From assembly GCA_029862935.1 (NCBI GenBank), contig JAOTWK010000022.1, positions 1 to 20,078 on the forward strand: a stretch of DNA of 20,078 nt. The letters run 5' to 3'. The position numbers were made by a program, and so were the translations under genes. How positions within the stretch are numbered: position 1 is the first letter of the stretch; each line of letters starts with the position of its first letter. Source of the stretch: Gemmatimonadota bacterium. Its GTDB lineage: Bacteria; Gemmatimonadota; Gemmatimonadetes; Gemmatimonadales; GWC2-71-9. Shown piece after piece: positions 6,142 through 20,078 of the stretch. Under the pieces are notes generated by a model. It was given only the letters and a program-made list of their open reading frames with translations. It did no database searches and was not told the origin of the DNA.

Positions 6142-6215
6142 CGGTGCACCAGGTGAGTGCACCGCTAGGGACCAGCACTGTAAGGGGATCTGGCACTTGC
6201 GCGGATCCCCTTTTT
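6142..6215 (+). ncRNA. Candidate small RNA or leader: two hairpins, last a terminator
   Basis: Bases 6142-6149 (CGGTGCAC) pair perfectly with 6157-6164 (GTGCACCG) across a 7-nt loop. Eighteen nt further on is a textbook intrinsic terminator (6182-6215). No open frame of note covers the pair, and the last upstream gene ends 490 nt away, so the terminator probably serves a transcript starting nearby. A short RNA starting around 6110-6140 is the simplest reading. Alternatives are the far end of the lipoprotein transcript, or an attenuated long leader of the cold-shock gene that starts at 6361. No promoter could be identified with confidence. Confidence 0.35.
6182..6215 (+). terminator. Intrinsic terminator
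   Basis: A perfect 9-bp stem, AAGGGGATC (6182-6190) with GATCCCCTT (6204-6212), encloses a 13-nt loop and runs into TTTTT at 6211-6215. It is the clearest rho-independent terminator in the window and acts on + strand transcription. GCGGATCCCC at 6201-6210 is repeated exactly at 6232-6241. Confidence 0.85.
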
Positions 6216-6360
6216 GCTCGTATCCCCGCCTGCGGATCCCCCTGGGGCTCACCGTCGGCAGCGCGACGCGGACGCACCTTCCGCGCAGAACGGATGCACG
6301 ATCGGCTGGTACGGTACACCCGGACTCCGACGTACATCACCACGGCACAGGAGTACGGCA

Positions 6361-6573
6361 ATGCGTGTAAGCGGCACAGTCAAGTGGTTCAACGAGCGCA
6401 AGGGCTTTGGATTCCTCACCCGTGACGACGGGGAAAAAGACTGTTTCGTGCACCACAGCGCGATTCAGGGCTCGGGCTTCAAGACCCTGCGTGAGGGCGA
6501 GCGTGTGGAGTTCGACGTCGTGGAGGGCCAGAAAGGCCCGGCGGCCGAGAACGTCACGAAGGCGGGCGAGTAA
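6361..6573 (+). CDS. Cold-shock domain protein
   Basis: A 70-residue single-domain CspA-family protein that binds single-stranded RNA and DNA and loosens RNA structure. It has the opening [11 protein letters not shown] typical of the family, RNP1-type KGFGFL (14-19) and RNP2-type CFVHHSAI (28-35). The length is standard. The ATG at 6361 follows AGGAG (6349-6353) by 7 nt; an upstream in-frame ATG at 6214 lies at the terminator and is rejected. The 145 nt between that terminator and the start form a long potential leader, as is common for cold-shock genes, whose leaders often control translation by temperature. The next gene is rpsU, after a strong hairpin. Confidence 0.95.
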
Positions 6574-6855: not shown

Positions 6856-6994
6856 CATGAGCGACGCCGGTCGGGGGGCGATCCAACGAGGGCACCCGAC
6901 AGGGAAGAGGGAGAACACAACACACCGAGCGAGCACCTGTGCCTCGACGAGAGAGACCCGGAGCCGCTCGGACGCCACATTAAGAGGAGGACCT

Positions 6995-8560
6995 GTGCGT
7001 CCAAAGCGCGTCGGGATTATCGACCTGGTCACGAAGGGACCGACGAGGACACTGTGGGGCCGCGTGATGAACGCCAATATGGCGAGCATCATGCCGCAAA
7101 TACTGGGTGTCTGGTGTGAAGAGGACGGGCACGACGTCAGCTTCGTGTGCTACACGGGATTCGAAGACCTGGTCGACGAACTGCCTCAAGACGTGGACGT
7201 CGTGTTCATCGGCGCGTTCACACAGGCCGCACAGCTCGCTTACGCCGTGAGCAACCTGTTTCGCTCGCGTGGTGCCGTGACCGTCCTCGGAGGACCACAC
7301 GCGCGCTGTTATCCCGAGGACTCTCGGAAGTATTTCGACTACGTGCTCGGCTTCACCGATCGGGAGCAGGTCCGTGAGGTCCTACGGGACCCGGCCCCCC
7401 ACCGACCGATGGGCCTGCATCTCGAGTCCTCGCAACAGCCGACGTCGCTCCCAGGGGTGCGCCAGCGCTGGAGCTACGTCGAGCGTACGCTCGCCAAGGC
7501 TCCCCTCATCAAGATCGTCCCGATGCTCGGCAGTCTCGGCTGCCCCTACACGTGCAGCTTCTGCATTGACTCGGAAGTTCCCTATCAACCCCTGGACTTC
7601 GACGTCCTGAAGGACGACCTCCGGTTTCTGCAACAACGCTTTCGTCGTCCGCGGGTTGCCTGGCACGATCCCAACTTCGGCGTCCGCTTCAATGATTACA
7701 TGGAGGCCATCGAAGAGGCCGTGCCGCCGGGAGCCATCGACTTCATCGCGGAGAGCAGTCTTTCCCTGCTCTCTGTACGGCACCTCTCGCGGCTCAAGCG
7801 GAACGGGTTCAAGGCAATCCTCCCGGGGATCGAGTCGTGGTTCGACCTGGGGAACAAGTCGAAGACCGGCAACACCGAGGGCCTCCCGAAGGTCATGCGC
7901 GTCGCCGAACACGTGCGAAAGATCCAGGAACACATCCCGTACGTGCAGACCAACTTCGTGCTGGGACTCGACAGCGATGTGGGCACTGAGCCGTTCGACC
8001 TGACCAAGCGGTTCCTCGACATGGTGCCGGCGGCGTTCCCGGCGTTTTCGCTCCTGTCGGCCTTCGGACGCGCTGCGCCGCTCAACCTGCAGTATCAGCG
8101 CGAGAACCGGGTGCTGCCGTTCCCGTTCCATTTCCTGAACAACAATCACGCCATGAACGTAAAGCCGGCCAACTATGACTGGCCCGAGTTCTACGACAAC
8201 GTCATTGGCCTCAGCAAGCACACGTTCTCGTGGCGAGCCATCTATGCCCGATTCCGGGCGATCAAACCGACGATCCCACGGTTGATGAACGTCGTTCGTG
8301 CCGTGTCGTCCGAGGGCTTCGGCCGCATCCGGTTCTACAAGCAGGTGCGCGACCTGCTCGAGCACGATCGGAAGTTCCGCGACTACTTCGAGGGTGAGAG
8401 CACGACCCTCCCCACGTTCTTCCTGGAGCGCGTACGGCACGACCTGGGGCCGCTGTGGTCTTGGTTGCCGAAAGGCGCGCTGTACCACGATCCCAACGCC
8501 TACCTCGCGGCGAGCGCCGTCGAGGCGCCGGTCGTCCAACTCACCCGGGCCACGGCATAG
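6995..8560 (+). CDS. Radical SAM protein with B12-binding-like N-terminus
   Basis: A 521-residue protein, counted from a GTG at 6995 that follows AGGAGG (6985-6990). The in-frame ATG at 6857, 1 nt after rpsU, would add a 46-residue Arg/Thr/Ser-rich stretch with no conserved look and is disfavoured. Residues 1-130 resemble the Rossmann-like cobalamin-binding domain of B12-radical SAM proteins (VDVVFIGAF, VLGGPHA), but the usual DxHxxG cobalt-ligand motif is absent. The radical SAM 4Fe-4S motif is intact: C183, C187 and C190 in GCPYTCSFC, followed by a TIM-barrel-like region with LPGIESWFDLGNKSK and QTNFVLGLDSD. It should cleave S-adenosylmethionine to a 5'-deoxyadenosyl radical; the substrate is unknown. 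The C-terminal 150 residues are Arg/Tyr-rich. No tailoring or scaffold gene is adjacent. Confidence 0.82.
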   Translation: MRPKRVGIIDLVTKGPTRTLWGRVMNANMASIMPQILGVWCEEDGHDVSFVCYTGFEDLVDELPQDVDVVFIGAFTQAAQLAYAVSNLFRSRGAVTVLGGPHARCYPEDSRKYFDYVLGFTDREQVREVLRDPAPHRPMGLHLESSQQPTSLPGVRQRWSYVERTLAKAPLIKIVPMLGSLGCPYTCSFCIDSEVPYQPLDFDVLKDDLRFLQQRFRRPRVAWHDPNFGVRFNDYMEAIEEAVPPGAIDFIAESSLSLLSVRHLSRLKRNGFKAILPGIESWFDLGNKSKTGNTEGLPKVMRVAEHVRKIQEHIPYVQTNFVLGLDSDVGTEPFDLTKRFLDMVPAAFPAFSLLSAFGRAAPLNLQYQRENRVLPFPFHFLNNNHAMNVKPANYDWPEFYDNVIGLSKHTFSWRAIYARFRAIKPTIPRLMNVVRAVSSEGFGRIRFYKQVRDLLEHDRKFRDYFEGESTTLPTFFLERVRHDLGPLWSWLPKGALYHDPNAYLAASAVEAPVVQLTRATA

Positions 8561-8579
8561 CGGCGGACTCCTTCTCCGC

Positions 8580-8620
8580 GGGCTCTCGCACAAAGAGAGC
8601 CCCGGGCGTCAAAGAGACGC
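8580..8620 (+). terminator. Tandem hairpins after the radical SAM gene
   Basis: Two adjacent hairpins lie 20 nt past the stop codon: GGGCTCTC (8580-8587) with GAGAGCCC (8595-8602), then GCGTC (8606-8610) with GACGC (8616-8620). There is no T-run. Position and strength suggest a transcript end for the radical SAM gene. The rest of the 175-nt spacer before the GH16 gene shows nothing else I can name. Confidence 0.5.
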
Positions 8621-8735
8621 GCGGGACTCTTGCAGTATCGCGCGAGGCTACCGCGAGCACCCAGACATCAGCGCGGCCCGACAGGCATCTGCGGCGCGTT
8701 GGACCTCCCCGCTCCATACCAACGACGTCCCCACA

Positions 8736-10205
8736 ATGACCCATCGGCGCTTCCCCTTCCTCATTGCTGTCACCTTACTGCTCACCGCCTGCACGGCACG
8801 GGACCCCAAGTGCGATGTAGAGCCGCTCGCGTACCCGATTGTTGATTTCGAGGGGCTCACCCCTGGTGAGTCGGTGGACTTCACGGCCCGACTCGTCAAA
8901 CGGAGCTTCACGGACAACGAAGAGCTGGAAGAAGACCTCGTCTTCGACGTCGACGGCCAATCTCGTCAGCTGACCTGGACGCTTCCCCGGAGGCTTTCCA
9001 TCGATCTCAATGAGGGACAGCAAGTCGAGGTGTTCATCCGGAAGACAATGGGGTTCGAGGGCTCCGCAACCGGCATCCGGATCCGGGACGAAGACGGAGT
9101 CGTTCTGCTCGTGGACGACGGTGTCTACGGGAACGCGCTGCGCCCGAACGAAATGGAGCCGTTCAGCTTCTCGCAGGAGGATGCCGGGTGCCGCAATCGC
9201 ACGAACCAGCCCGGGCAACTCAACAACTTCTTCCTCGTCGCGGAAGAAGGGGGTGCACGGGTAGAGCTGATGCACGGAAGCCAAGGCAATCTCGAGGTGG
9301 GCGGGCGCACGTACTCCGTCCTGGCCGTCAAGAGCACGGCTCGGGTCGATGACGTCCAATGGACCGACGCGCCGTACAGCCACCAAGCGTTCGTGATCGC
9401 CCGGAACCAACACGACTCCCGCGCGGGACGCGATGCAGGTCAGGACCCCGACTGGGAACTCGCCTGGGCCGATGAGTTCGGCGGCAGCGTCATCGACCAG
9501 CAGAGCTGGACGCCGGTGGTCATGCCAGATCCCCACAACGAAGAGCTGCAGTATTACACCGACCGAGTGGACGCCGCGCCCGGCGCCAATGCCTGGTTGG
9601 AAGACGGTGCGCTGGTCATCGAGGCGCGACGCGAGGACTTCGAGCATCGGCGGTACACCTCGGCGCGGCTCAACACGAAGGGCAAACGGGAATTTCGTTA
9701 CGGTCGCTTCGAAGCGCGAATTCGGCAGCCGGGAGAAGTGGGGATGTGGCCCGCGTTCTGGTTGCTTGGCGGCAACATCGATGAAGTCGGTTGGCCGCGC
9801 TGCGGCGAGATCGACATCCTGGAGGGCAAGGGACGACTCTCGGATTGGACCTCCGGCGCCATTCACCGCGGTCCCGATGGGGCCAGCAACCGAATCACAG
9901 CGGCGGAATTTCGACTCGATTCCGGCAGCTTCCACGACGAGTGGCACGTATTCGCTGTGGAGTGGGAGCCCGAGCGCATTCGCTGGTATGTCGACGGGGT
10001 CGAGTTTCACACCACAGTGAAGACGCCCGGCGAAGACCCTGCCTACTGGCCATTCGACGAGGGCCACGCGTTCTACATCATCTTGAATCTGGCGGTGGGT
10101 GGCTGGTTCGATAACCCGCACTTGCCGCCGGACGACTTGTCACCGCAACACCTCTACGTAGACTACGTGCGCGTGTATCGCCGCACTGCCTCACAAGTGC
10201 CTTGA
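8736..10205 (+). CDS. GH16 beta-glucanase lipoprotein (laminarinase-like)
   Basis: A 489-residue lipoprotein. The signal ends in LLTAC with the lipid-bearing Cys at residue 19, so the enzyme should sit on the envelope. Residues 240-485 are a glycoside hydrolase family 16 domain: WADEFGG near its start, MWPAFWLLG (337-345), the catalytic GEIDILEG with nucleophile E358 and acid/base E363, and the C-terminal VDYVRVYRR (475-483). GH16 enzymes cut beta-1,3 or mixed beta-glucans, and this one looks closest to laminarinases. Residues 20-235 form an extra beta-rich domain I do not recognise (WTLPRRLSIDLNEGQ near its middle), perhaps a glycan-binding or spacer module. The ATG at 8736 is chosen because it opens the signal peptide; no clear ribosome-binding site precedes it. 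It ends tail to tail with the GH13 gene, 34 nt apart. Confidence 0.9.
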   Translation: MTHRRFPFLIAVTLLLTACTARDPKCDVEPLAYPIVDFEGLTPGESVDFTARLVKRSFTDNEELEEDLVFDVDGQSRQLTWTLPRRLSIDLNEGQQVEVFIRKTMGFEGSATGIRIRDEDGVVLLVDDGVYGNALRPNEMEPFSFSQEDAGCRNRTNQPGQLNNFFLVAEEGGARVELMHGSQGNLEVGGRTYSVLAVKSTARVDDVQWTDAPYSHQAFVIARNQHDSRAGRDAGQDPDWELAWADEFGGSVIDQQSWTPVVMPDPHNEELQYYTDRVDAAPGANAWLEDGALVIEARREDFEHRRYTSARLNTKGKREFRYGRFEARIRQPGEVGMWPAFWLLGGNIDEVGWPRCGEIDILEGKGRLSDWTSGAIHRGPDGASNRITAAEFRLDSGSFHDEWHVFAVEWEPERIRWYVDGVEFHTTVKTPGEDPAYWPFDEGHAFYIILNLAVGGWFDNPHLPPDDLSPQHLYVDYVRVYRRTASQVP

Positions 10206-10239
10206 GGAGAGCAAGACTTCCGGCCCGGCACAGAACCCG

Positions 10240-12603
10240 CTAGTCCCGCACCCAGATCAAGAAGGATCCCGCCGGGACCGGGATTTCGTGCACTCCGCCC
10301 GATAGCACTGCGAATTCGCCACCAACCCCAACGACATGATCCACCCGCTCGCGATCGCCGACCTGTCGCCAGTCGCCGTTGGAGAGTTCGAACCGGAATG
10401 ACCCCTGTGCGGTGCCGCTGTTCGCCAGTACGAGCACGCGCTCACCGACAACATAGCCGAGCAAATGACCGTTATCGGGCGTGATCCACCGGTGCTGCTC
10501 GGCCGGTACGTGAGCCACGCGGAACACACTGCCGTACTCCGACAGCCGAAGTGCGATGAGACCACGCCAGTAGTCACGCATCGCCGCGTGATCGGATCCA
10601 GGAGCGAGATTGTTCCACACGAACTGGTTGGGTGCGCGTAGGTTGTACGTGTCGTCGCGTCCCTTGAAGTGGATCGGCCCGCTGGCGGTCTCGCGCACGA
10701 ACTCCTCCAACGGCGCCAGGCCTTTTGAACGCAACATCTCGGTGCCGCCGTGGATCACGATTGGCCCCGCCGACGTGAAGAGGAGCCCCGCGGCGATCCG
10801 CATCGCTCCCAGATCCACACCGTCCAATCCGTTGTGGTTCTCGAGCGCGTACCGGTCTGCCAGTGCCCAGTTGTCGTGAATGTCCAAGTAGGAGATCCCG
10901 TTCGTGGAAAGCGGCTCTTCCACATACGCATTGGCGAGTGCCACCATCGTGGCCTTGCGCACCTTCGCGTCCCCACCCGCCCAGCCACGATCGTTCACGT
11001 CGAACGGACTGCCCTTGAAGGCGTTGCGGGCGTCGTCCTGGAAGAACGTGATCGGCGCGTCGGCCTTGTACCATGCCCAATCGGGGTTCGCCCTCACGTC
11101 CGGATCACTCGGTGCGATCCACGCCTCACCATAGATGATCAGGTCTTGGGGAAGCTCCCGCTTCACGTGGCGTAACGTCTGCTCGTCTACTTGACCCGCG
11201 AGGTCGATCCGAAAGCCGTCCACGCCCAGCTCGTCGACCCAGTGCCGCATCTGGTCCAGGATCCAGCGCTGCACCATCGGTCGGTCTTCCGACTTGACCT
11301 CGTTGCCGAACGGACCGATGTGCTGTACATCGTCATCGGTGCGGAAGTAGTGCGGCATGTCCAACACGTTGAAATTGAACAGCAGGTGCCTGCCGTCCAT
11401 GTTCTCGCCGGTGTGGTTGGGAACGAAGTCGATGATGACCGAGATTCCCTTGTCATGAAACGCGCGCACCAACTCCTTGAACTGCTCGCGTTCCGACCCG
11501 GGCAGCGCGTCGCGTGATCGGTAGCGGCTTTCCACCGCAAAGGCGTGAGTCGTGCGGTAGCCCCACTGATAGTTCTCCCTGTCGATCCCCATGGCATGCG
11601 CAAACGAGTCGTTCGCGAACGCGTCCTGCCACTCCGCATCCGGGTAGTGCAGATACTCCTGCATGGGCATCAAGTGCACGACGTTGATGCCCAGGTCCAC
11701 CAAATAGTCGAATCCAATGGGCTCGCCGTGCGCGTTGACCAGCCCCGAGCGGGCCATGGCGGGGATCGTCCCGGTTTCGGTCGTCGTGACCGGCAACAGA
11801 TCGGTGAAGTCCTGGATATGTACCTCGTAGGCGACCACGTCTTCCATTGGCGGCCGACCACCCCGCACGGGCGGTGGTGGTGGACTGTCGCGCCACACGC
11901 GCGACTTGCCGTACGAGTCATCGCTCACCAGCGCGTACGGATCCGAGATGTGCACGGGGTGGCTCTTGTAAAAGTAGTTGCCGGGATCGCTGGGGCCGTG
12001 CACGGTGAAATCGTACCAGATGCCATGCTGGTCGCCGGCGACCGAGATTCCCCATACCCCGCCTGCGTCCTGCACCATGTCGATAACGCGCATGGCCCCA
12101 TCGGGATCGTCGGTTGGCTCCCGATACAGGTACAGCCGCACGGCATCAGCGCGTGGCGAGAATATGCGGAACGTCGTCCTGGTACCATCGGGAGCCACCA
12201 TCGCGCCCAGTGGTTTCGTCGAATACAGATTACGAAAGATGGGGTCGCGCCGCACGAGAGTCGAAACGCCGAGATCCGGGATCTCGAGATAGTGGACACG
12301 CATGGGATCCAGCGGGGTGCCCGGAATCACCAGCGATTCGGTGGCCGTGTTCGGCAGCACCTTGGCAATCGGCAGCGTGCGACCTAGAGCATCCGTCAGG
12401 CGATAGCTTGTCACCTCCGACGGCCTGTCAGCCCCCAAAAGGCTCAACCAAATAGCGGCTGGGCCGTATATCTCTGCGCGGAACCGGACAGCGGACGCGG
12501 TGTCCTGGGCCACGGCATGGGCACCCAGCAGAAGGCTGAGGGAGAGCATGACGGCGGTACTCAAGGCCTGCGCTGAGAGACACGCGCGTATCCCTGCGCT
12601 CAT
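10240..12603 (-). CDS. Exported GH13 pullulanase-type alpha-glucan hydrolase
   Basis: A 787-residue exported enzyme with a signal peptide ending near AVAQD (30-34). Residues about 130-235 are a CBM48-like beta-sandwich (TTFRIFSPRADAVRLYLY). The catalytic barrel (about 250-680) holds the four GH13 regions: DFVPNHT (392-398), GFRIDLA with nucleophile D467, YGEAW with acid/base E493, and DIHDN with D577. YQWGYRTTHAF (345-355) is close to the YNWGYdP signature of pullulanases and isoamylases, here with TT in place of the usual acidic/Pro pair. Family knowledge points to hydrolysis of alpha-1,6 (or alpha-1,4) links in starch, glycogen or pullulan outside the cytoplasm. Region I has a Pro where many have Tyr. 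The ATG at 12603 has GAGGA 5 nt upstream. It is transcribed towards the GH16 gene; no transporter or regulator is adjacent. Confidence 0.9.
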   Translation of the reverse strand: MSAGIRACLSAQALSTAVMLSLSLLLGAHAVAQDTASAVRFRAEIYGPAAIWLSLLGADRPSEVTSYRLTDALGRTLPIAKVLPNTATESLVIPGTPLDPMRVHYLEIPDLGVSTLVRRDPIFRNLYSTKPLGAMVAPDGTRTTFRIFSPRADAVRLYLYREPTDDPDGAMRVIDMVQDAGGVWGISVAGDQHGIWYDFTVHGPSDPGNYFYKSHPVHISDPYALVSDDSYGKSRVWRDSPPPPPVRGGRPPMEDVVAYEVHIQDFTDLLPVTTTETGTIPAMARSGLVNAHGEPIGFDYLVDLGINVVHLMPMQEYLHYPDAEWQDAFANDSFAHAMGIDRENYQWGYRTTHAFAVESRYRSRDALPGSEREQFKELVRAFHDKGISVIIDFVPNHTGENMDGRHLLFNFNVLDMPHYFRTDDDVQHIGPFGNEVKSEDRPMVQRWILDQMRHWVDELGVDGFRIDLAGQVDEQTLRHVKRELPQDLIIYGEAWIAPSDPDVRANPDWAWYKADAPITFFQDDARNAFKGSPFDVNDRGWAGGDAKVRKATMVALANAYVEEPLSTNGISYLDIHDNWALADRYALENHNGLDGVDLGAMRIAAGLLFTSAGPIVIHGGTEMLRSKGLAPLEEFVRETASGPIHFKGRDDTYNLRAPNQFVWNNLAPGSDHAAMRDYWRGLIALRLSEYGSVFRVAHVPAEQHRWITPDNGHLLGYVVGERVLVLANSGTAQGSFRFELSNGDWRQVGDRERVDHVVGVGGEFAVLSGGVHEIPVPAGSFLIWVRD

Positions 12604-12806: not shown

Positions 12807-12876
12807 ATAACCTCTGTCGGGTTTTATCGGTATGGTCCGATTCTGCCGAGACCCGGCGTTCACGAAGGGGGGCATC

Positions 12877-13740
12877 ATGTCCGACATTGCCAAGCGCGGG
12901 TACGTCAATCCCAACGTGCTCGTCGATACCGATTGGGTGGCACAGCATCTCGACGATCCGACGGTGCGGATCATAGAGTCGAACGAAGATCCGCTGCTCT
13001 ATTCGTCCGGCCACATCCCGGGCGCCGTCGAGGTGGACTGGACGCGCGACCTCAACGATCCGGTGCGGCGCGATTACCTCGAGCGCCCCGGCTTCGAAGC
13101 GCTGATGCGCCGGATCGGCGTGGCACAAAACACGATGGTCGTGTTCTACGGCGACAAGAACAACTGGTGGGCGACCTACGCGTTCTGGATCTTCCAGCTC
13201 TTCGAACATTCGAAGGCCAAGGTGATGGATGGCGGCCGGCTCAAGTGGGAGCAGGAGGACCGTCCCATGACCACCGATGTGCCGAGCCATCCCGCCACGA
13301 AGTACCAGGCACCTGAGCGGGACGACACGCGGATCCGAGCATTCCGCGAGGAAGTGCTCGCTCATATTCAAGCCAACGGCCAGCTGGTGGACGTGCGGAG
13401 CCCCGAGGAGTACTCCGGGGAGCGGCTCCACATGCCGGCCTACCCCAACGAGGGCGCACTTCGTGGCGGACACATTCCGGGTGCCGCCAACGTACCATGG
13501 GCCCGTGCCGTCAACACGGACGACGGGACGTTCAAGGCCGCCGACCAGCTCCGTGCCATCTACCAGCGGGAAGTCGGGCTCGATCAGCAAGACGAGGTCA
13601 TCGCCTATTGCCGTATCGGCGAGCGGTCGAGCCACACGTGGTTTGTGCTCACCCACCTGCTCGGCTTCCCCAACGTCCGCAACTACGACGGCAGCTGGAC
13701 CGAATGGGGAAACCTGGTGAACGTTCCCATCGAGCGATAG
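12877..13740 (+). CDS. Thiosulfate sulfurtransferase (tandem rhodanese)
   Basis: A 287-residue two-domain rhodanese. The N-terminal domain (about 10-130) is inactive, as is normal for the family. The C-terminal domain (about 155-285) has the active-site loop CRIGERS with the persulfide Cys C245. The Arg-Ile-Gly-Glu-Arg loop favours thiosulfate as donor, as in mycobacterial CysA-type thiosulfate:cyanide sulfurtransferases, rather than the CGSGVT loop of 3-mercaptopyruvate enzymes. YDGSWTEWG (270-278) is also a family mark. It moves sulfane sulfur to cyanide or, in cells, to thiol acceptors. The start is set at 12877 by the GGGGGG purine run (12867-12872) before the ATG; an in-frame ATG at 12832 is possible but has poor support. 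A SufE-like gene follows 65 nt downstream in the same direction. Confidence 0.92.
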
Positions 13741-13805
13741 CGTCCCTTGCGCAGCATACGCGGCTGGGCGCACCCGTTCTCGATGCTGCACTGGGCGGAG
13801 AATGG

Positions 13806-14252
13806 ATGACCGAACATCCGGAACGACTCACGAAGTTCCTGCGTCTGATCGGGCGGACGCAGGATCGGCAGGAGCGAATTCAGCTCTTGATCGATATTGC
13901 ACGGCGGTTCCAGCCCGTGGCGCCCGCGATCGCGAGCCCGCCCTACGCCTCCCAGTTCAAGGTGCCAGCGTGCGAGTCACAGGCGTACGTGTTCCCCGAG
14001 CCCCATGACAACGGCACGCTCACGTTTCACTTTGCGGTCGAAAACCCGCAAGGTATCTCGGCGATGGCGATGGCAGTGATCTTGGGCGATGCCTTGTCAG
14101 GCGCCCCGCTCGATCAGGTTGCAGCCGTGTCGACCGACGTCGTGTACGAGATCTTCGGACGTGAGCTGTCAATGGGAAAGAGCATGGGGCTCACCGGCAT
14201 GGTGAACCTGGTGACGAGCTTTGCCCGGAGCCGGTTGGAAGGGCGCATGTAG
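13806..14252 (+). CDS. sufE: SufE-like Fe-S sulfur acceptor
   Basis: A 148-residue SufE-family protein. SufE takes persulfide sulfur from the cysteine desulfurase SufS on its own Cys and passes it to the SufBCD scaffold. The acceptor Cys is C56 in VPACESQAY, aligned with the usual GCQSxV loop. The family's C-terminal end is visible: a GREL turn, then MGLTGMVNLV. The ATG at 13806 has GGAG about 7 nt upstream; longer in-frame extensions run into the sulfurtransferase gene. No sufB, sufC, sufD or sufS gene is in the window, and the neighbour is a thiosulfate sulfurtransferase. This suggests, by inference, that thiosulfate-derived sulfur could be fed to SufE. Confidence 0.88.
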   Translation: MTEHPERLTKFLRLIGRTQDRQERIQLLIDIARRFQPVAPAIASPPYASQFKVPACESQAYVFPEPHDNGTLTFHFAVENPQGISAMAMAVILGDALSGAPLDQVAAVSTDVVYEIFGRELSMGKSMGLTGMVNLVTSFARSRLEGRM

Positions 14253-14465: not shown

Positions 14466-15410
14466 GTGGCGGTGACCATCGCGCTCCTTGTGGGAGCGCT
14501 GGCGCTACTGTATGTCGGCGGAGAGGCGCTCGTTCGCGGAGCGTCGACACTGGCGTCGCAGCTCGGCGTCTCCGCTCTGGCCATTGGGCTCACCGTGGTC
14601 GCATTCGGAACGAGCACCCCAGAGTTGGCGGTGTCGGTCGACGCGGCGCTCGCAGGAGCAATCGACATCTCCGTCGGCAACGTCGTCGGCTCCAACATTG
14701 CGAACGTCACGCTCATCCTCGGTCTGGCAGCCCTCATTCGCCCGGCGGTCGTCCAGGCCAAGGTCGTCCTCCTCGACACACCCCTCATGATCCTCGCGTC
14801 TGTTGCCCTCGTCGGTGTACTCGCGAACGGCGTAGCCTCACGGTTAGAGGGCGCCTTGCTCGTACTCGGATTGGCGATCTACGTCGTGTTCACCTTCTGG
14901 GAAGGACGGCGAGAGTCAGGTCGGATTCGTGATGAATTTTCCGCGGCAGTTCCAAAGTCTCCCACCAGGGCGATATGGAGTGTGATCTTCGTGCTCGTCG
15001 GGTTGGGATTGCTCGCAGGTGGCGGTCACCTCCTGGTCACCGTGGCCGTCTCGCTCGCAACCTCCCTAGGTGTCAGCCAGGCGACAATCGGCCTCACCAT
15101 CGTTGCGGTGGGTACCAGCCTCCCAGAACTCGCGACGTCTGTCATCGCCTCCGCGCGTGGTCAGGGCGACATTGCCGTCGGCAACGTCGTCGGAAGTAAC
15201 ATGTTCAACATCCTCGGCATTCTGGGTACCACCGCGGTCATTCATCCACTGAGATTGGGAGGCATCAGCGTGATCGATCTCGGTACGATGGTGGCGGCCT
15301 CAGGCGCTCTCATGATTCTGCTGTACGCCCGTCATCGGCTCGGTCGTGTGGCCGGATCCCTCCTCCTCGCAAGCTTCGTCGCCTATGTAGGCTGGCTGAT
15401 CGCCGCCTGA
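14466..15410 (+). CDS. YrbG-type Na+/Ca2+ exchanger
   Basis: A 314-residue inner-membrane cation antiporter of the Ca2+/cation antiporter (CaCA) superfamily, YrbG subgroup, with about ten hydrophobic segments. The two inverted alpha-repeats that bind the cation are intact: GTSTPE (48-53) with GNVVGSNIAN (71-80), and GTSLPE (216-221) with GNVVGSNMFN (239-248). The two Glu residues E53 and E221 are the expected ligands. A short charged loop (about 146-165) divides the halves. It probably exports Ca2+ in exchange for Na+ or H+. The start is a GTG with GGAG 11 nt upstream, a little far. It converges on the permease gene of the right-hand operon with a 37-nt gap. Confidence 0.92.
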   Translation: MAVTIALLVGALALLYVGGEALVRGASTLASQLGVSALAIGLTVVAFGTSTPELAVSVDAALAGAIDISVGNVVGSNIANVTLILGLAALIRPAVVQAKVVLLDTPLMILASVALVGVLANGVASRLEGALLVLGLAIYVVFTFWEGRRESGRIRDEFSAAVPKSPTRAIWSVIFVLVGLGLLAGGGHLLVTVAVSLATSLGVSQATIGLTIVAVGTSLPELATSVIASARGQGDIAVGNVVGSNMFNILGILGTTAVIHPLRLGGISVIDLGTMVAASGALMILLYARHRLGRVAGSLLLASFVAYVGWLIAA

Positions 15411-15447: not shown

Positions 15448-16467
15448 TCAACGACCGACATGCGTCGGGAGATAGCGGCTGGAGCGGTACAGCGCGTAGT
15501 CCACACCCGCCAACAGGACCAACGCCCCGGCCGCCCACATCAGCAGGTCGGCACTCAGGGGAATGAGAATCAGCGAGGTCACGAACTCCACGAGAATGAG
15601 GAAGATCAGTAGCCAGGCGATGTGGTGGCGAGTCATCCAACCGCACAACATAGCGCCGACCGGCGCGCCCACCACCACGATGGGCACGGCTGCCAGCCAC
15701 CATGCCTGGATCTGAGGTGTGAAGTCGTCGAGCACGAACAGATGCAGGCCGAAACCGACCAACGAGTTTCCCGCCATCAGGATCACCGACGTTGGCGTGG
15801 CCACTTTTTCGCTCACCCTGAAGAGCAAGACCAGCAGCGCAAACGTGACGATGTCGATACCATTGCCCACCAAGCCACTCATGATGCCGCCAAGAAGACC
15901 GGCCAGTGCGAGCAGCATCACTTCCCGCCCGCCGAACAGGGATAGGTCGCTGTGGGTAGCGCGATCAACGCGATTCAGCAACCACAGGGTAACGGCGAAG
16001 CTGGCCAACATGAGGGTGAAGCTGATGCGGACCACCACCGGCGACACGAGCGGCGACAGCCAGAAACTGCTGAGCGCGATACCGGGGATACCGGCGAGAC
16101 TGGCACACAGTATCGCTCGCCAGCTCACCCGGATACGCATGAACAGGATCAGCAGCGACGCGGCCGTCATGCCGACGCTCTGGATAGCCAGGGAGAAGAT
16201 CCGCGCATCGGAGGGCGCGATCGCGAGCACCTTGGTGAAGATCGGGAATGCCACCGCCCCACCACCTTCGCTGGTGGCACCCGCAATGAGCGAGCCGAAC
16301 GCCATTGTGAGGCTGACGGGCCAATGCGTCTCTAGAGCCTGCACCGCCCGCTGACCGCCCCACAGAAACCACGCCGTCCACACCAGGAGCGTCATGACGG
16401 CGTGAAAGTAGGGCGTGGACCGAGGCGCTCGCCTCCTGACGCCTCTTGAGAGACGGGTGTCGATCAT
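15448..16467 (-). CDS. TauE/SafE (TSUP) family membrane permease
   Basis: A 339-residue protein with about eight or nine hydrophobic segments. The glycine-rich stretches GSLIAGATSEGGGAVAFP and LAGLLGGIMSGLVGNGID mark the two repeats of the sulfite exporter TauE/SafE (TSUP) family, whose members move sulfite, taurine-derived sulfonates, thiosulfate or other small organic anions. The start is placed at the ATG at 16467, whose four bases ATGA overlap the stop of the upstream amidohydrolase gene. A longer frame to 16608 would lie inside that gene and begins with a basic, non-membrane sequence. It is the last gene of the right-hand operon and, by position, probably exports or imports that pathway's product or substrate. 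Its cargo cannot be read from sequence. Confidence 0.88.
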   Translation of the reverse strand: MIDTRLSRGVRRRAPRSTPYFHAVMTLLVWTAWFLWGGQRAVQALETHWPVSLTMAFGSLIAGATSEGGGAVAFPIFTKVLAIAPSDARIFSLAIQSVGMTAASLLILFMRIRVSWRAILCASLAGIPGIALSSFWLSPLVSPVVVRISFTLMLASFAVTLWLLNRVDRATHSDLSLFGGREVMLLALAGLLGGIMSGLVGNGIDIVTFALLVLLFRVSEKVATPTSVILMAGNSLVGFGLHLFVLDDFTPQIQAWWLAAVPIVVVGAPVGAMLCGWMTRHHIAWLLIFLILVEFVTSLILIPLSADLLMWAAGALVLLAGVDYALYRSSRYLPTHVGR

Positions 16468-17183
16468 CGGCGCCGACTTTGCGAGTCGAAGATACCGGCG
16501 ACGGCGTCGACCATGCGGCGTTGGACACCGGGTTGCCCCACGAGTCGTTGATTCAACTCGATCTCGATCCCGATGTAGCGGCCGGCTGGAAGTTGTCGTC
16601 GACACCACGTGGTGAACCCGTCGCTGGTACCGCGGTACGGGTAGTTCCTTCGCACCGAGAAGCCGCGTGCTTCGAGAAGGCTCTCGAGCTCGTTGGCCAG
16701 CTGACGTTCCCGTGTTCGGCCAGGATCGTATAGCAGCCCGACATCCACGCGACGTACCATGCCGTGCAGTATGGGCGTGAAACTGTGGATGCTCAGGTGA
16801 ACGCAGCCGCCGGCACCTCGGGTGGCGCGTTCGATGACGCGGAGTGCCTCAGTTCGCCAGGGCGCGTGATAGGTCGCGATCCGGCGCGCACGCTCCGCCG
16901 AGGTGAGCGCCGCGTTGCCCGGCACCCGAGTGCCGAAGGCCACCTTTGGCACGACACGCGGATGATGCGGACTCCGATTGAGATCGGCGACGAGCCGAGA
17001 GTATGTGCCTACGACCGCCGGGCACTCCAGTTGTGCCGCAAGCGCGCGTGCGAGCCGCGCCGCGCCCTTGTCCCACGCGATGTGCGACTTCCGCTGGATG
17101 GCACTCAGGCCGAGCGATCCCACACTCCGCGGGAACCGCCGGCTAGCATGCTCGCAGGTGAGAACGAGCCCTCGTCGACTCAC
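16464..17183 (-). CDS. N-formylglutamate amidohydrolase-family protein
   Basis: A 239-residue zinc amidohydrolase-like protein of the N-formylglutamate amidohydrolase (FGase) family, which is related in fold to zinc carboxypeptidases. Motifs are LTCEHAS with E11 and H12, HIAWDKG (34-40), SRLVADLNRS (62-71), SIHSFTP with H133 and GIEIELNQ with E207 and E209. These fit the metal site and general base. The start is given as the GTG at 17183, which forms a GTGA overlap with the stop of the upstream ligase gene; the GTG at 17192 would add three residues. There are no histidine-degradation genes nearby, so classical N-formylglutamate breakdown (HutG) is unlikely. In this operon it more likely removes an acyl group or cuts an amide bond in the ligases' product; this is inference. 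Confidence 0.87.
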   Translation of the reverse strand: MSRRGLVLTCEHASRRFPRSVGSLGLSAIQRKSHIAWDKGAARLARALAAQLECPAVVGTYSRLVADLNRSPHHPRVVPKVAFGTRVPGNAALTSAERARRIATYHAPWRTEALRVIERATRGAGGCVHLSIHSFTPILHGMVRRVDVGLLYDPGRTRERQLANELESLLEARGFSVRRNYPYRGTSDGFTTWCRRQLPAGRYIGIEIELNQRLVGQPGVQRRMVDAVAGIFDSQSRRR

Positions 17184-18427
17184 CCGTCCCACGGCCGGTT
17201 GACGCGCAGGCAGGCGGCGAGCTCCTCGTATACCTCACGGATGGCGGCCTGCTGCTTCGGTCCGCTCCTGTCCGCGTGGCGCCGCACTCGCGACACGATA
17301 CGCTCCGAAAGGTTGCCGCGGGCGATGCGGTCGGTCACCAGCGAAAGGTAGGCGCGCTCTGCCACGGGAACGCGTGATTGGATCTGATCCGCCAGCAGCT
17401 CCAGTACGTCTCGGGCCGTGCGCGACCGCGTGCGGCGTCCCCTCAAGTGAGGCGCCTCGACGGTCGCGGCCCGTCCGCGTTGAATCACCGCCGTGAAGTC
17501 GCTGACGAGCACGTGGTGGTCTGGCAGCGCCATGCTCCCGTCCTCGAGTTGCGCCACCATCCATCGGAGCGCCGCCCGGATGAAGACCGCGACCGCGACG
17601 TCCGCCTTGACGCACTCTTGCATGTCGAGCACGCGGATCTCGATAGCGCGGCGCATGAAGCGCATGATCGCGCCACGGGAATTTACCCATTCGTGCTGCA
17701 GGATGTCCCCGCCAGGGACGTCGTCCAGGGCACGGTAAATGGGCTGGAGAATTCGGCGCCGGTAGTCGCGGTACGACCCGACGAGCTCCGGCACGACGGC
17801 GCCTGCGATCAGCGGAATGCGACGCTGATTGTCACGGTAGAAGGCCAGCCGATTGTCGACATGCGGCCCAATGCGCCCTTCGTAGACCGGGGAGCTGGCT
17901 GAGAGCGCCGGCAGGTACGGGATCAAACAGGCGATCGCATTGTGGAGTCGCATCGTCTGCTCTTCCGTACCGAACGGGAGGTTGACGTGACTCGCCTGCA
18001 CGTTGAGCCAGCCGTGTCCGCGTATTCCAAATATGCGGTCGTACGTGCCGTAGATGCGGCGTCCGGCACGGCGCCATAACTGGGTCTCTTCTGGACGCAT
18101 GAACGGGTGCATGCCCGTTGGGAGAAGGCGGGCACCGAACTGTGAGTCCAGCAGCGTCGCGAACCGGTCGAGCCCGTTGACGAGCTGCCGCTCGATCCGG
18201 TCGAGGCTTCGCTGCGGCCGGATCGTTTTGATCTCGAACACGTGCGCGGCCAGTTCGTTCGAGAACCCCACGTTGGCGGATTCGATATCGGAGGTCGGCC
18301 GTCCGCCATGTCGGTGAAAGGCCGCCTCGACGAGGCACTGTGGGGTGAGATCCGCGTCGACCACTGGATATTCGAGCTCGAGGCCGACGACCTCGAACAG
18401 CCGGTACGGGCGCCGCTCCGCGGTCAT
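17180..18427 (-). CDS. GCS2-like carboxylate-amine ligase
   Basis: A 415-residue ATP-dependent ligase of the glutamate-cysteine ligase family 2 (GCS2/YbdK, COOH-NH2 ligase) group, with a glutamine-synthetase-like fold. Members join a carboxylate, often the gamma-carboxyl of Glu, to an amine. Visible active-site elements are GLELEY with E17 and E19, SNELAAHVFEIKT with E58 and E65, ASHVNLPFG (145-153), SASSPVYEG (176-184) and EIRVLDMQE (263-271), all in family order. The Arg-rich C-terminal half (330-415) is longer than in minimal YbdK proteins. It overlaps the ATP-grasp gene upstream by ATGA and the amidohydrolase gene downstream by GTGA. The substrate is unknown; gamma-glutamyl-amino acid formation is the family default. 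Confidence 0.87.
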   Translation of the reverse strand: MTAERRPYRLFEVVGLELEYPVVDADLTPQCLVEAAFHRHGGRPTSDIESANVGFSNELAAHVFEIKTIRPQRSLDRIERQLVNGLDRFATLLDSQFGARLLPTGMHPFMRPEETQLWRRAGRRIYGTYDRIFGIRGHGWLNVQASHVNLPFGTEEQTMRLHNAIACLIPYLPALSASSPVYEGRIGPHVDNRLAFYRDNQRRIPLIAGAVVPELVGSYRDYRRRILQPIYRALDDVPGGDILQHEWVNSRGAIMRFMRRAIEIRVLDMQECVKADVAVAVFIRAALRWMVAQLEDGSMALPDHHVLVSDFTAVIQRGRAATVEAPHLRGRRTRSRTARDVLELLADQIQSRVPVAERAYLSLVTDRIARGNLSERIVSRVRRHADRSGPKQQAAIREVYEELAACLRVNRPWDG

Positions 18428-20043
18428 GACTCGGTGCGTCGGTCGCGCGGGGCGCGAATGCGGTTCAGCAGCGTGCTGATGATCGCATCGTAGATCCCGT
18501 CCCGCTCAACGGCGTCCTCGTCACCCTCCATGATATTGGGATTGTCGTTCACCTCGATCACGACCGCGCCCGCTTTGGTCTCCTTGAGGTCCACGCCGTA
18601 GAGACCCTCCCCAATGAGGGAGGCCGAGTCGAGCGCCAGGCGGGAGACGTCCGCCGGCACCTCGGAAAAGGGGACCGCTTCCACCTTGCCGTAGCGAGTC
18701 CTGCCCGTCTTCCAGCGGCCCACGATCTGCCAGTGGTCTTTGACCATGTGGTACTTCGCCGCAAAGAGCAGCGCGCCGTCGAGCACGCCGATACGCCAGT
18801 CGAACGGCGTCGGTGTGAACTCCTGCGCGATCAGGAGCGGGGAGCGCCGGAACATCTCCTTGCTCAGGCGCTCGAACTCCTCGATCGTCGTTGCCTTCTT
18901 CACTGCGTGCGAGAACGTTCCGTCGGGCACCTTGAGGATCATCGGAAAACCAAGTGCGGCCACCTCGGCCGAAGGCGTCGTGCGCGAAATGATTTCGGTG
19001 TGCGGAGTCGGGATCGCGTGCTTTTCAAACAGTTCGTGCAGGTACACTTTGTTACTGCATCGCATGATCGACCGCGGGTCGTCGATCACCGGGATATCGA
19101 GACTTTCAGCGACTCGACTGAACGTGAACGCGTAGTGGTCGATGGCCGTCACCGTGCGGATGAACAGGGCGTCGTACTCCGCAAGCCTCGAGAGATCCTC
19201 GCGCCCAATCACTTCGAACAGTGCGTTGCGCCGCTCTGCTGCCCGCTCGAACCGTTCGAGCGTCCCTTCGTCGGTCGGCGAGTAGGGGTCCTGTTCGTCG
19301 AACAGGCAGGCAATCCGGAACGGACGATCTTCCGTGGTGTCCGCCGTACGGCGGCGCAGCCGATCCTTGCCCAACTCGCTCTTCAGCAGCTCGGTCTCAT
19401 CGGCGTTGAGCGTGTCCAGCGACACCGGACAGATCTGCCCGATCTGCCATTCTTCCTCGTCGGGGTCCCAGTAGAGACGGATGCGGAGCAACGGGACTGG
19501 ATACACCTTGAACACCGCCGACGCGATGCGGCGGAATTCGGGCTCAGTGGTCCGGCCCAGGATGCTCGTGATCTCGCGATACGTGCGTGAGACTCGCTCG
19601 TACCGCGGTACCGCATCACCACCCGCGGCGGCCATCATCGGTTGCGGCGGCTGTTCCGCCTTCGGACCGGGATCGGGTTCCGGAACAATGAGACGTGGGA
19701 TCAAACGGTGGCCGCCCCTGGCGATCCGGTACTCGATCGTTTCGAGTCCGGCCTCCTGCAGCGTCCGGAAGTAGACGAACGGGTCGGTGATTGCCTGAAT
19801 CGTTTCCAGCGTCGGGATCGTGCGGTGCTTCCGCGCCTCGCCGAGCAGCGACACGTAATACCCACGACTCAAGTACTGGAACGACCGGCACAGGTTCACG
19901 ATCGTCAGCCCCTCATCGACCGTCTGCCCCTCGCCAGCGAGATAATCGTCTGCCGTCACCAGTTGGACGTCGTCGAGCTTCCGCCCCGCGGGAAGATCGG
20001 TCACGACCACCACGCTGCTGCGGGGCTTGCGCGGTGCGGTCAT
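18424..20043 (-). CDS. RLAN-domain RimK-like ATP-grasp ligase
   Basis: A 539-residue two-part ligase. Residues about 10-165 match the RimK-like ATP-grasp N-terminal (RLAN) domain, recognised from CRSFQYLSRGYYVSLLGEAR (52-71) and the following HRTIPT. A middle section (240-300) is the pre-ATP-grasp fold. The ATP-grasp proper (about 305-530) has SNK (330-332), PMILKVPDG with K371, QEFTP (407-411), DWR (415-417), GVDLKE with D485, and the metal loop EVNDNPN with E497 and N499/N501/N503. Family members join amino acids to peptides or proteins (RimK, glutathione synthetase, cyanophycin-type enzymes). The ATG at 20043 sits in an ATGA that would overlap a gene beyond the edge. No strong ribosome-binding site is seen, in keeping with coupled translation. 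Confidence 0.9.
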   Translation of the reverse strand: MTAPRKPRSSVVVVTDLPAGRKLDDVQLVTADDYLAGEGQTVDEGLTIVNLCRSFQYLSRGYYVSLLGEARKHRTIPTLETIQAITDPFVYFRTLQEAGLETIEYRIARGGHRLIPRLIVPEPDPGPKAEQPPQPMMAAAGGDAVPRYERVSRTYREITSILGRTTEPEFRRIASAVFKVYPVPLLRIRLYWDPDEEEWQIGQICPVSLDTLNADETELLKSELGKDRLRRRTADTTEDRPFRIACLFDEQDPYSPTDEGTLERFERAAERRNALFEVIGREDLSRLAEYDALFIRTVTAIDHYAFTFSRVAESLDIPVIDDPRSIMRCSNKVYLHELFEKHAIPTPHTEIISRTTPSAEVAALGFPMILKVPDGTFSHAVKKATTIEEFERLSKEMFRRSPLLIAQEFTPTPFDWRIGVLDGALLFAAKYHMVKDHWQIVGRWKTGRTRYGKVEAVPFSEVPADVSRLALDSASLIGEGLYGVDLKETKAGAVVIEVNDNPNIMEGDEDAVERDGIYDAIISTLLNRIRAPRDRRTES

Positions 20044-20078
20044 GTGGCGCCTCGTCGCGCACCGAGCGTCAGCAGCAC
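20040..20078 (-). CDS. Possible C-terminal end of an upstream operon gene (cut by the window)
   Basis: On the minus strand the frame entering from the right edge is open for 12 codons (VLLTLGARRGAT) and stops at a TGA (20042-20040) that overlaps the ATP-grasp start as ATGA. The other three junctions of this operon have exactly this arrangement, so a fifth gene is likely. Too little is present to name the product. Confidence 0.45.
   Translation of the reverse strand: MLLTLGARRGAT

Follow-up and report, generated by a model that had tools for sequence, protein, structure and literature searches.

What do two amide-forming ligases and an amidohydrolase make when their genes are joined end to end, and which of their neighbors take part? 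The question is raised by an operon at one end of contig JAOTWK010000022.1 (assembly GCA_029862935.1) from a Gemmatimonadota bacterium, the 20,078 nucleotides of which are referred to here as the window. Four minus-strand open reading frames (ORFs) encode, in order of transcription, a ligase composed of an RLAN domain and a RimK/LysX-like ATP-grasp domain (RLAN-ATP-grasp; 18424–20043, 539 amino acids, aa), a GCS2-type carboxylate-amine ligase (17180–18427, 415 aa), an N-formylglutamate amidohydrolase-like hydrolase (FGase; 16464–17183, GTG start, 239 aa) and a TSUP/TauE-like permease (15448–16467, 339 aa). Successive genes share 4-nt stop/start overlaps (ATGA at 18424–18427, GTGA at 17180–17183 and ATGA at 16464–16467), the last of which is present in the window only. 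An initial sequence-only reading of the window had delimited these four ORFs and three junctions, and all of its coordinates and letters were borne out. Comparison with related loci places the ligases and the hydrolase in a conserved module that usually begins with a gene for a papain-like C39 peptidase, whereas the permease gene looks like a local addition.

Enzymes of the operon

Each of the four proteins exceeds the Pfam gathering score of its family: RLAN-ATP-grasp scores 105.5 against PF14401 (RLAN; cut-off 25) and 33.6 against PF08443 (RimK; 21), GCS2 96.9 bits against PF04107 (21), FGase 128.2 against PF05013 (28.9), and TSUP, which has no NCBIfam match, 67.4 against PF01925 (TauE/TSUP; 32.6). 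The active sites of the three enzymes had been described as intact, and those conserved positions that were checked (acidic, His, Arg and Lys), whose catalytic roles we take to be those of their families, are indeed present in all three. In alignments made from chosen subsets of loci, residues E17, E19, E58, E65 and E263 of GCS2, some of which presumably bind Mg, are kept in all 73 sequences, and the window FGase shares 25 invariant columns with 20 module relatives (n = 21). The best sequence match of FGase among solved structures is 2odf.

Conservation of the module

The sample comprised 395 Gemmatimonadota, 294 Planctomycetota, 194 Verrucomicrobiota and 14 control genomes, in which RLAN (PF14401) is present in 38, 74, 29 and none, respectively. 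Family searches of whole genomes were used in place of an exact-pattern scan of contigs, which matched four loci only. Altogether 141 RLAN neighborhoods were read, 39 from Gemmatimonadota (including locus L002), 74 from Planctomycetota and 28 from Verrucomicrobiota; left out were G806, from Verrucomicrobiota, whose match is partial and has a stop, and the second copy in each of G739 and G375. Partners (GCS2, GNAT, C39 and FGase) were detected with profiles built from the proteins of the window and its relatives on these 141 loci, and were counted when on the same strand and within 4.5 kb of RLAN.

A GCS2 partner was found in 93 of the 141 loci, and in these C39 is the steadier companion, being present in 86 as against 51 for FGase. 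All four genes occur together at 50 loci, and the commonest of 20 arrangements is C39 > RLAN-ATP-grasp > GCS2 > FGase, in that exact order at 48 loci; the same series without FGase was seen at 21, and C39 followed by a single ORF in which RLAN-ATP-grasp and GCS2 are fused at 14. The fusion itself occurs at 18 loci. Among homologous junctions, 48 of 75 between ATP-grasp and GCS2 and 18 of 50 between GCS2 and FGase allow a 4-nt overlap, both being upper values since the start closest to the stop was picked; these counts, together with a gene order repeated in three phyla, show that the overlap arrangement exceeds chance.

The linkage also holds when approached from GCS2. Four candidates were scored per genome, and GCS2 of the window type (best match of at least 113 bits; the other listed matches fell below 40 bits, bar the 96-bit second piece of one split gene) was detected in 34 of the 395 Gemmatimonadota genomes, 32 of which also carry RLAN. 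In one of the two remaining genomes a contig-edge copy lies beside FGase, and in the other a truncated GCS2 lies between a truncated C39 gene and FGase. At L206:3982–6491, in a genome without RLAN, the first 100 positions of the C39 profile run directly into a GCS2 that lacks its start, and a complete FGase comes next; loss of the RLAN gene or a collapsed assembly would give such a picture. In a protein collection, with lists capped at 120, the best 120 GCS2 and best 119 RLAN relatives share 27 contig sizes, equal size being only a proxy for the same contig. Outside the sampled phyla, a record from the gammaproteobacterium Legionella adelaidensis carries consecutive genes annotated as ‘RimK family protein’, ‘glutamate-cysteine ligase family protein’ and ‘N-formylglutamate amidohydrolase’, with overlaps of 8 and 4 nt; the visible part of the record starts with these three genes. 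The grouping of the FGase-like hydrolase with the two ligases, which the sequence-only reading had proposed, is thus upheld by genes that adjoin with overlaps and are sometimes fused in Gemmatimonadota, Planctomycetota and Verrucomicrobiota, and in this one gammaproteobacterial record.

The gene beyond the window edge

The minus strand of the window ends in the last 12 codons and stop of a further gene (20040–20078; VLLTLGARRGAT*), which overlaps the RLAN start by ATGA and which the sequence-only reading had left without an identity, asking only what might lie beyond 20078. The C39 protein encoded directly upstream of RLAN in L086 ends ...TYDAVLLTLGRPVPNS, its first six residues matching the window frame VLLTLGARRGAT, and that of L087 ends ...TYDAVLLTLRPRPRTHSQH; these C-termini were also compared as DAVLLTLGRPVPNS (L086) and DAVLLTLRPRPRTHSQH (L087), with only six residues identical to L086. 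In L001, L002 and L003, the gene preceding the RLAN ligase encodes a protein of 239–267 aa that scores over the Peptidase_C39_2 cut-off. The partial gene therefore probably encodes a papain-fold, C39-like cysteine peptidase, an assignment that draws on its position in relatives as much as on the letters of its 12 codons. All 24 aligned C39 relatives (of the 44 then found) keep the same Gln, Cys, His and Asp; of the window’s own gene the 12 C-terminal codons are visible.

TSUP as a probable local addition

A TSUP relative was found in none of the 141 module neighborhoods, and blastp of the window protein against the first 61 of these returned only matches with E values of at least 4. Among the five nearest genomes the window TSUP is unmatched in four, and in the fifth its one match is weak (E 7.7e-5) and lies some 1 Mb away from the module. 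The 118 listed TSUP relatives share no contig of equal size with the 120 GCS2 relatives and one with the 119 RLAN relatives, and at 1647 b this is too short to hold whole TSUP and RLAN genes. On these three comparisons TSUP is rejected as a member of the pathway; it looks like a private 3′ rider on the operon. The gene-order comparison that had been proposed as a check therefore yielded a conserved module, with C39 as its first gene and without TSUP, and the co-occurrence that would be expected of a joint pathway is seen for the ligases, in part for FGase (see below) and not for TSUP.

No other downstream gene was found to recur in its place: an ORF of at least 120 aa starting between −40 and +120 b of the module end could be taken at 58 of the 93 GCS2 loci (the longest was used, and many look like chance ORFs), and blastp grouped these into only five clusters, of 2, 2, 2, 3 and 5 loci. 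In L002 an ORF for a CorA-type Mg2+ transporter (L002:9950–11179) overlaps the end of FGase or comes after it, on the same strand and at the position that TSUP has in the window, and members of its family are also present in L087 and L077. The cluster to which the window TSUP belongs has members on two contigs, the longer of 29,609 b, a size that does not appear among the listed RLAN and GCS2 relatives. Thiomargarita and other Thiotrichaceae are among the few named TSUP relatives.

Inferred exchange of GCS2 and GNAT

Of 48 loci without GCS2, 37 have a GNAT gene on the same strand, and GCS2 (93 loci) and GNAT (37) never occur together on one strand (Fisher p 2e-24, uncorrected for kinship); GNAT lies on the opposite strand in two GCS2 loci. 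A papain-like DUF3335 domain accompanies GNAT in 15 of the 141 neighborhoods, in one case on the other strand, and FGase was found on the same strand within 4.5 kb in none of the 37 GNAT loci. What the loci themselves show is the linkage of the genes, their order and fusion, the same-strand exclusion of GCS2 and GNAT, and the retention of conserved positions.

A tree of the ATP-grasp domain was made by a quick method from 139 loci and the window and was midpoint-rooted; L103 and L139, in which the ligase domain is cut or missing, were left out. On this tree four changes between GCS2 and GNAT are needed. We infer a constant core, the RLAN ligase, to which either GCS2 or GNAT brings an exchangeable second acylation step. 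The fused RLAN-ATP-grasp-GCS2 proteins form a single clade (support 99), which falls in a group of 25 rows (support 96) with a six-row unfused clade that includes the window (support 86) and with L118, the inner order of this group being unresolved. The rows nearest to the window belong to L086 and L001 of the Gemmatimonadota set. In nine Planctomycetota loci, L122, L123 and seven like them, RLAN and ATP-grasp occupy two ORFs with GNAT after them, and these loci lie on a long, well-supported branch. A further gene family lies about 6 kb or less from the fused gene, on the other strand, in L092, L093, L094, L096 and L099; the L092 member, the only one scanned, is a Peptidase S51.

Relation to known systems

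The RLAN text of Pfam is said to cite RimK/GCS2 fusions from the 2009 amidoligase survey of Iyer et al. In the portion of PMC4431377 that was available, which cites Iyer 2009, ATP-grasp ligases are noted to share operons with COOH-NH2 ligase or GNAT families in multiple instances, linked ligases are described as often making successive bonds, and a GNAT is suggested as a possible cap for their product. The kind of system seen here has thus already been predicted; this gene set, its GCS2/GNAT exchange and its product are without description in the literature searched, although the linkage may already be listed in Iyer et al. (2009). A ligase carried by about 1/10 of the Gemmatimonadota, 1/4 of the Planctomycetota and 1/7 of the Verrucomicrobiota genomes sampled has no identified product in that literature. 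The minimal set (C39, RLAN-ATP-grasp, GCS2 and FGase), with its natural fusions and the GNAT/GCS2 exchange, offers a small testable unit for finding it, in which TSUP can be dispensed with.

None of the NCBIfam cut-offs for RimK, LysX, glutathione synthetase, YbdK or HutG is reached by the window proteins, in agreement with the earlier expectation that the operon would differ from glutathione and RimK systems. The window ligase scores 79.7 bits against 143.4 for RimK (rimK_fam, TIGR00768), 80.5 against 275.6 for LysX/ArgX of the amino-group carrier protein pathway (LysX_arch, TIGR02144) and 17.9 against 408 bits for the only glutathione synthetase model listed (NF009110). The module resembles the RimK/RimB modification of S6 in pairing a RimK-type ATP-grasp ligase with a hydrolase, but the N-terminal RLAN domain of its ligase is a difference, as are the partners of that ligase, namely GCS2, FGase and a papain-like enzyme rather than the aspartic protease RimB. 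Structurally the ATP-grasp domain is closest to ArgX/LysX and RimK, the matches to the whole model being filled by this domain and not by RLAN. The window GCS2 is 14–18% identical to YbdK and plant glutamate-cysteine ligase, reaches 54.6 of the 176.4 bits of the YbdK-type model (gshA_cyan_rel, TIGR02050) and is linked to RLAN-ATP-grasp instead of glutathione synthetase. FGase shares the PF05013 family with the N-formylglutamate deformylase HutG, but scores 21.5 against 278.75 bits (TIGR02017) and sits in a ligase module.

The GNAT-DUF3335 proteins paired with an RLAN ‘RimK family protein’ form a closer sister system, with the same RLAN-ATP-grasp ligase and a papain-like partner of the C39/DUF3335 group; these pairs have GNAT where the window system has GCS2, and lack the nearby same-strand FGase. 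N-acetylglutaminylglutamine amide (NAGGN), an acylated dipeptide osmolyte, is made with a GNAT cap and an ATP-grasp amide bond, and the module is conceptually alike. It differs in having GCS2 in place of GNAT, no asparagine-synthase-like match was found among the ORFs scanned, and the GNAT-DUF3335 protein of the sister system scores 31.8 against the cut-off of 569 of TIGR03103. DUF3335-GNAT fusions are mentioned, with reference to Iyer 2009, in the available portion of PMC10318531. A known anti-phage defense system was also considered and rejected, as PADLOC returned no family at E 0.01 for the four window proteins, the C39 of one relative and one GNAT-DUF3335 protein.

A proposed pathway and its alternatives

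On balance we lean toward a cytosolic module that assembles a small peptide-like metabolite non-ribosomally, three of its genes lying in the window beside the local TSUP gene and C39 probably beyond the edge. GCS2 would activate a carboxylate with ATP and form one amide, by family resemblance a gamma-glutamyl-type bond, and the RLAN-RimK-like ligase would attach an amino acid by forming a second amide bond, again with ATP; for its relatives RimK and LysX/ArgX the residue attached is L-glutamate or a similar one. The papain-like C39 and FGase may then hydrolyze amide bonds, or recycle them, in the product or in an intermediate that carries a cap. Because GNAT replaces GCS2 in sister systems, GCS2 probably carries out an N-capping or acylation that can be supplied by either an acyl-CoA enzyme or a ligase. 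These enzymes would constitute a single pathway and would act in the order given. It is possible, if short of probable, that this extends to a widespread route to a capped peptide in Gemmatimonadota, Planctomycetota, Verrucomicrobiota and some Pseudomonadota, in which the RLAN-RimK core is fixed, the cap is swapped between the evolutionarily unrelated chemistries of GNAT and GCS2, and the cytosolic papain-like enzyme perhaps acts on the product as a transpeptidase.

Several observations weigh against a small-peptide module of this kind. The profiles used for detection derive from the very loci in which partners were then counted, and within 4.5 kb FGase is absent from 42 and C39 from seven of the 93 GCS2 loci, some of which are cut by contig ends. 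At 11 of the 141 RLAN loci the same strand carries no GCS2 and no GNAT; contig ends cut three of these (L102, L103 and L139) and leave at least eight unexplained. Among plasmids, 11 records cover at least 80% of the RLAN ligase and only one, the Legionella record, has GCS2, while within 4 kb of a copy on a Pseudomonas aeruginosa plasmid no C39, GNAT, GCS2 or FGase is annotated; such lone copies imply that RLAN ligases also exist outside the module. As regards the exchange, 41 of the 136 inner branches of the tree are weakly supported (<80), the well-supported ones force fewer switches (at least two changes of the GNAT label), and the exclusion statistic ignores kinship. Finally, a protein acceptor for RLAN-ATP-grasp is possible because the ATP-grasp domain is structurally closest to ArgX/LysX (acceptor LysW) and RimK (acceptor ribosomal protein S6).

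Such an acceptor is central to an alternative in which the module tags a protein, the RLAN-RimK ligase and GCS2 adding amino acids that the papain-like enzyme and FGase remove, in a writer/eraser relationship like that of RimK and RimB on S6. The structural likeness is in its favor; we regard it as rather unlikely. Far less credence is given to the low-molecular-weight thiol of the sequence-only reading, or another sulfur compound, made and moved jointly by GCS2, ATP-grasp, FGase and TSUP. The GCS2 family does include glutamate-cysteine ligases, TSUP does overlap FGase by ATGA, and sulfur bacteria are among its few named relatives; however, TSUP was the main support for this idea and occurs in none of the 141 neighborhoods, and its contig sharing (none with GCS2 relatives and the single 1647-b size with RLAN relatives) contrasts with the 27 shared by RLAN and GCS2. 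The SufE and rhodanese genes of the window lie on the other strand beyond the CaCA gene, and no search aimed at sulfur genes was made near the relatives.

It is equally improbable that the product is a ribosomally synthesized and post-translationally modified peptide of the graspetide-like kind, in which the ligases would modify a ribosomal precursor and the C39-like peptidase would cut its leader. The C39 peptidases of ABC transporters remove double-glycine leaders, according to the available portion of PMC10318531, and the module C39 profile aligns with the peptidase domains of ComA and PCAT. Yet in up to 2.5 kb before C39 at 90 loci, the only side scanned, no small ORF is shared by more than close relatives, which favors a product not derived from a linked precursor peptide, and no downstream gene recurs in more than five loci, ABC transporters not having been searched for as such. 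The 2,532 small ORFs (20–130 aa) upstream of the 90 C39 genes formed clusters of at most seven loci; 11 of the 12 largest came from the close relatives L146–L161, and the other (five loci) is taken, by its length and its distance, for the N-terminus of C39 itself.

Other features of the window

A Na+/Ca2+ exchanger gene (14466–15410, plus strand) converges on the operon, and relatives of the exchanger lie near RLAN ligases in three of the 141 neighborhoods (L002, L068 and L087), which may be chance. On the plus strand, opposite to the operon, a two-domain rhodanese gene (12832–13740) is followed by a SufE-domain gene (PF02657, within ORF 13497–14252), and the two (12832–14252) possibly form a sulfur-mobilization pair. 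The region 8298–12603 holds a GH16-domain ORF (plus strand) and a gene for an isoamylase-type alpha-amylase-domain protein (minus strand), arranged tail to tail. A plus-strand gene (6857–8560) encodes a radical SAM protein with a B12-binding-like stretch that scores under the cut-off of that family, and a cold-shock-domain gene (within 6214–6573) lies just upstream of it.

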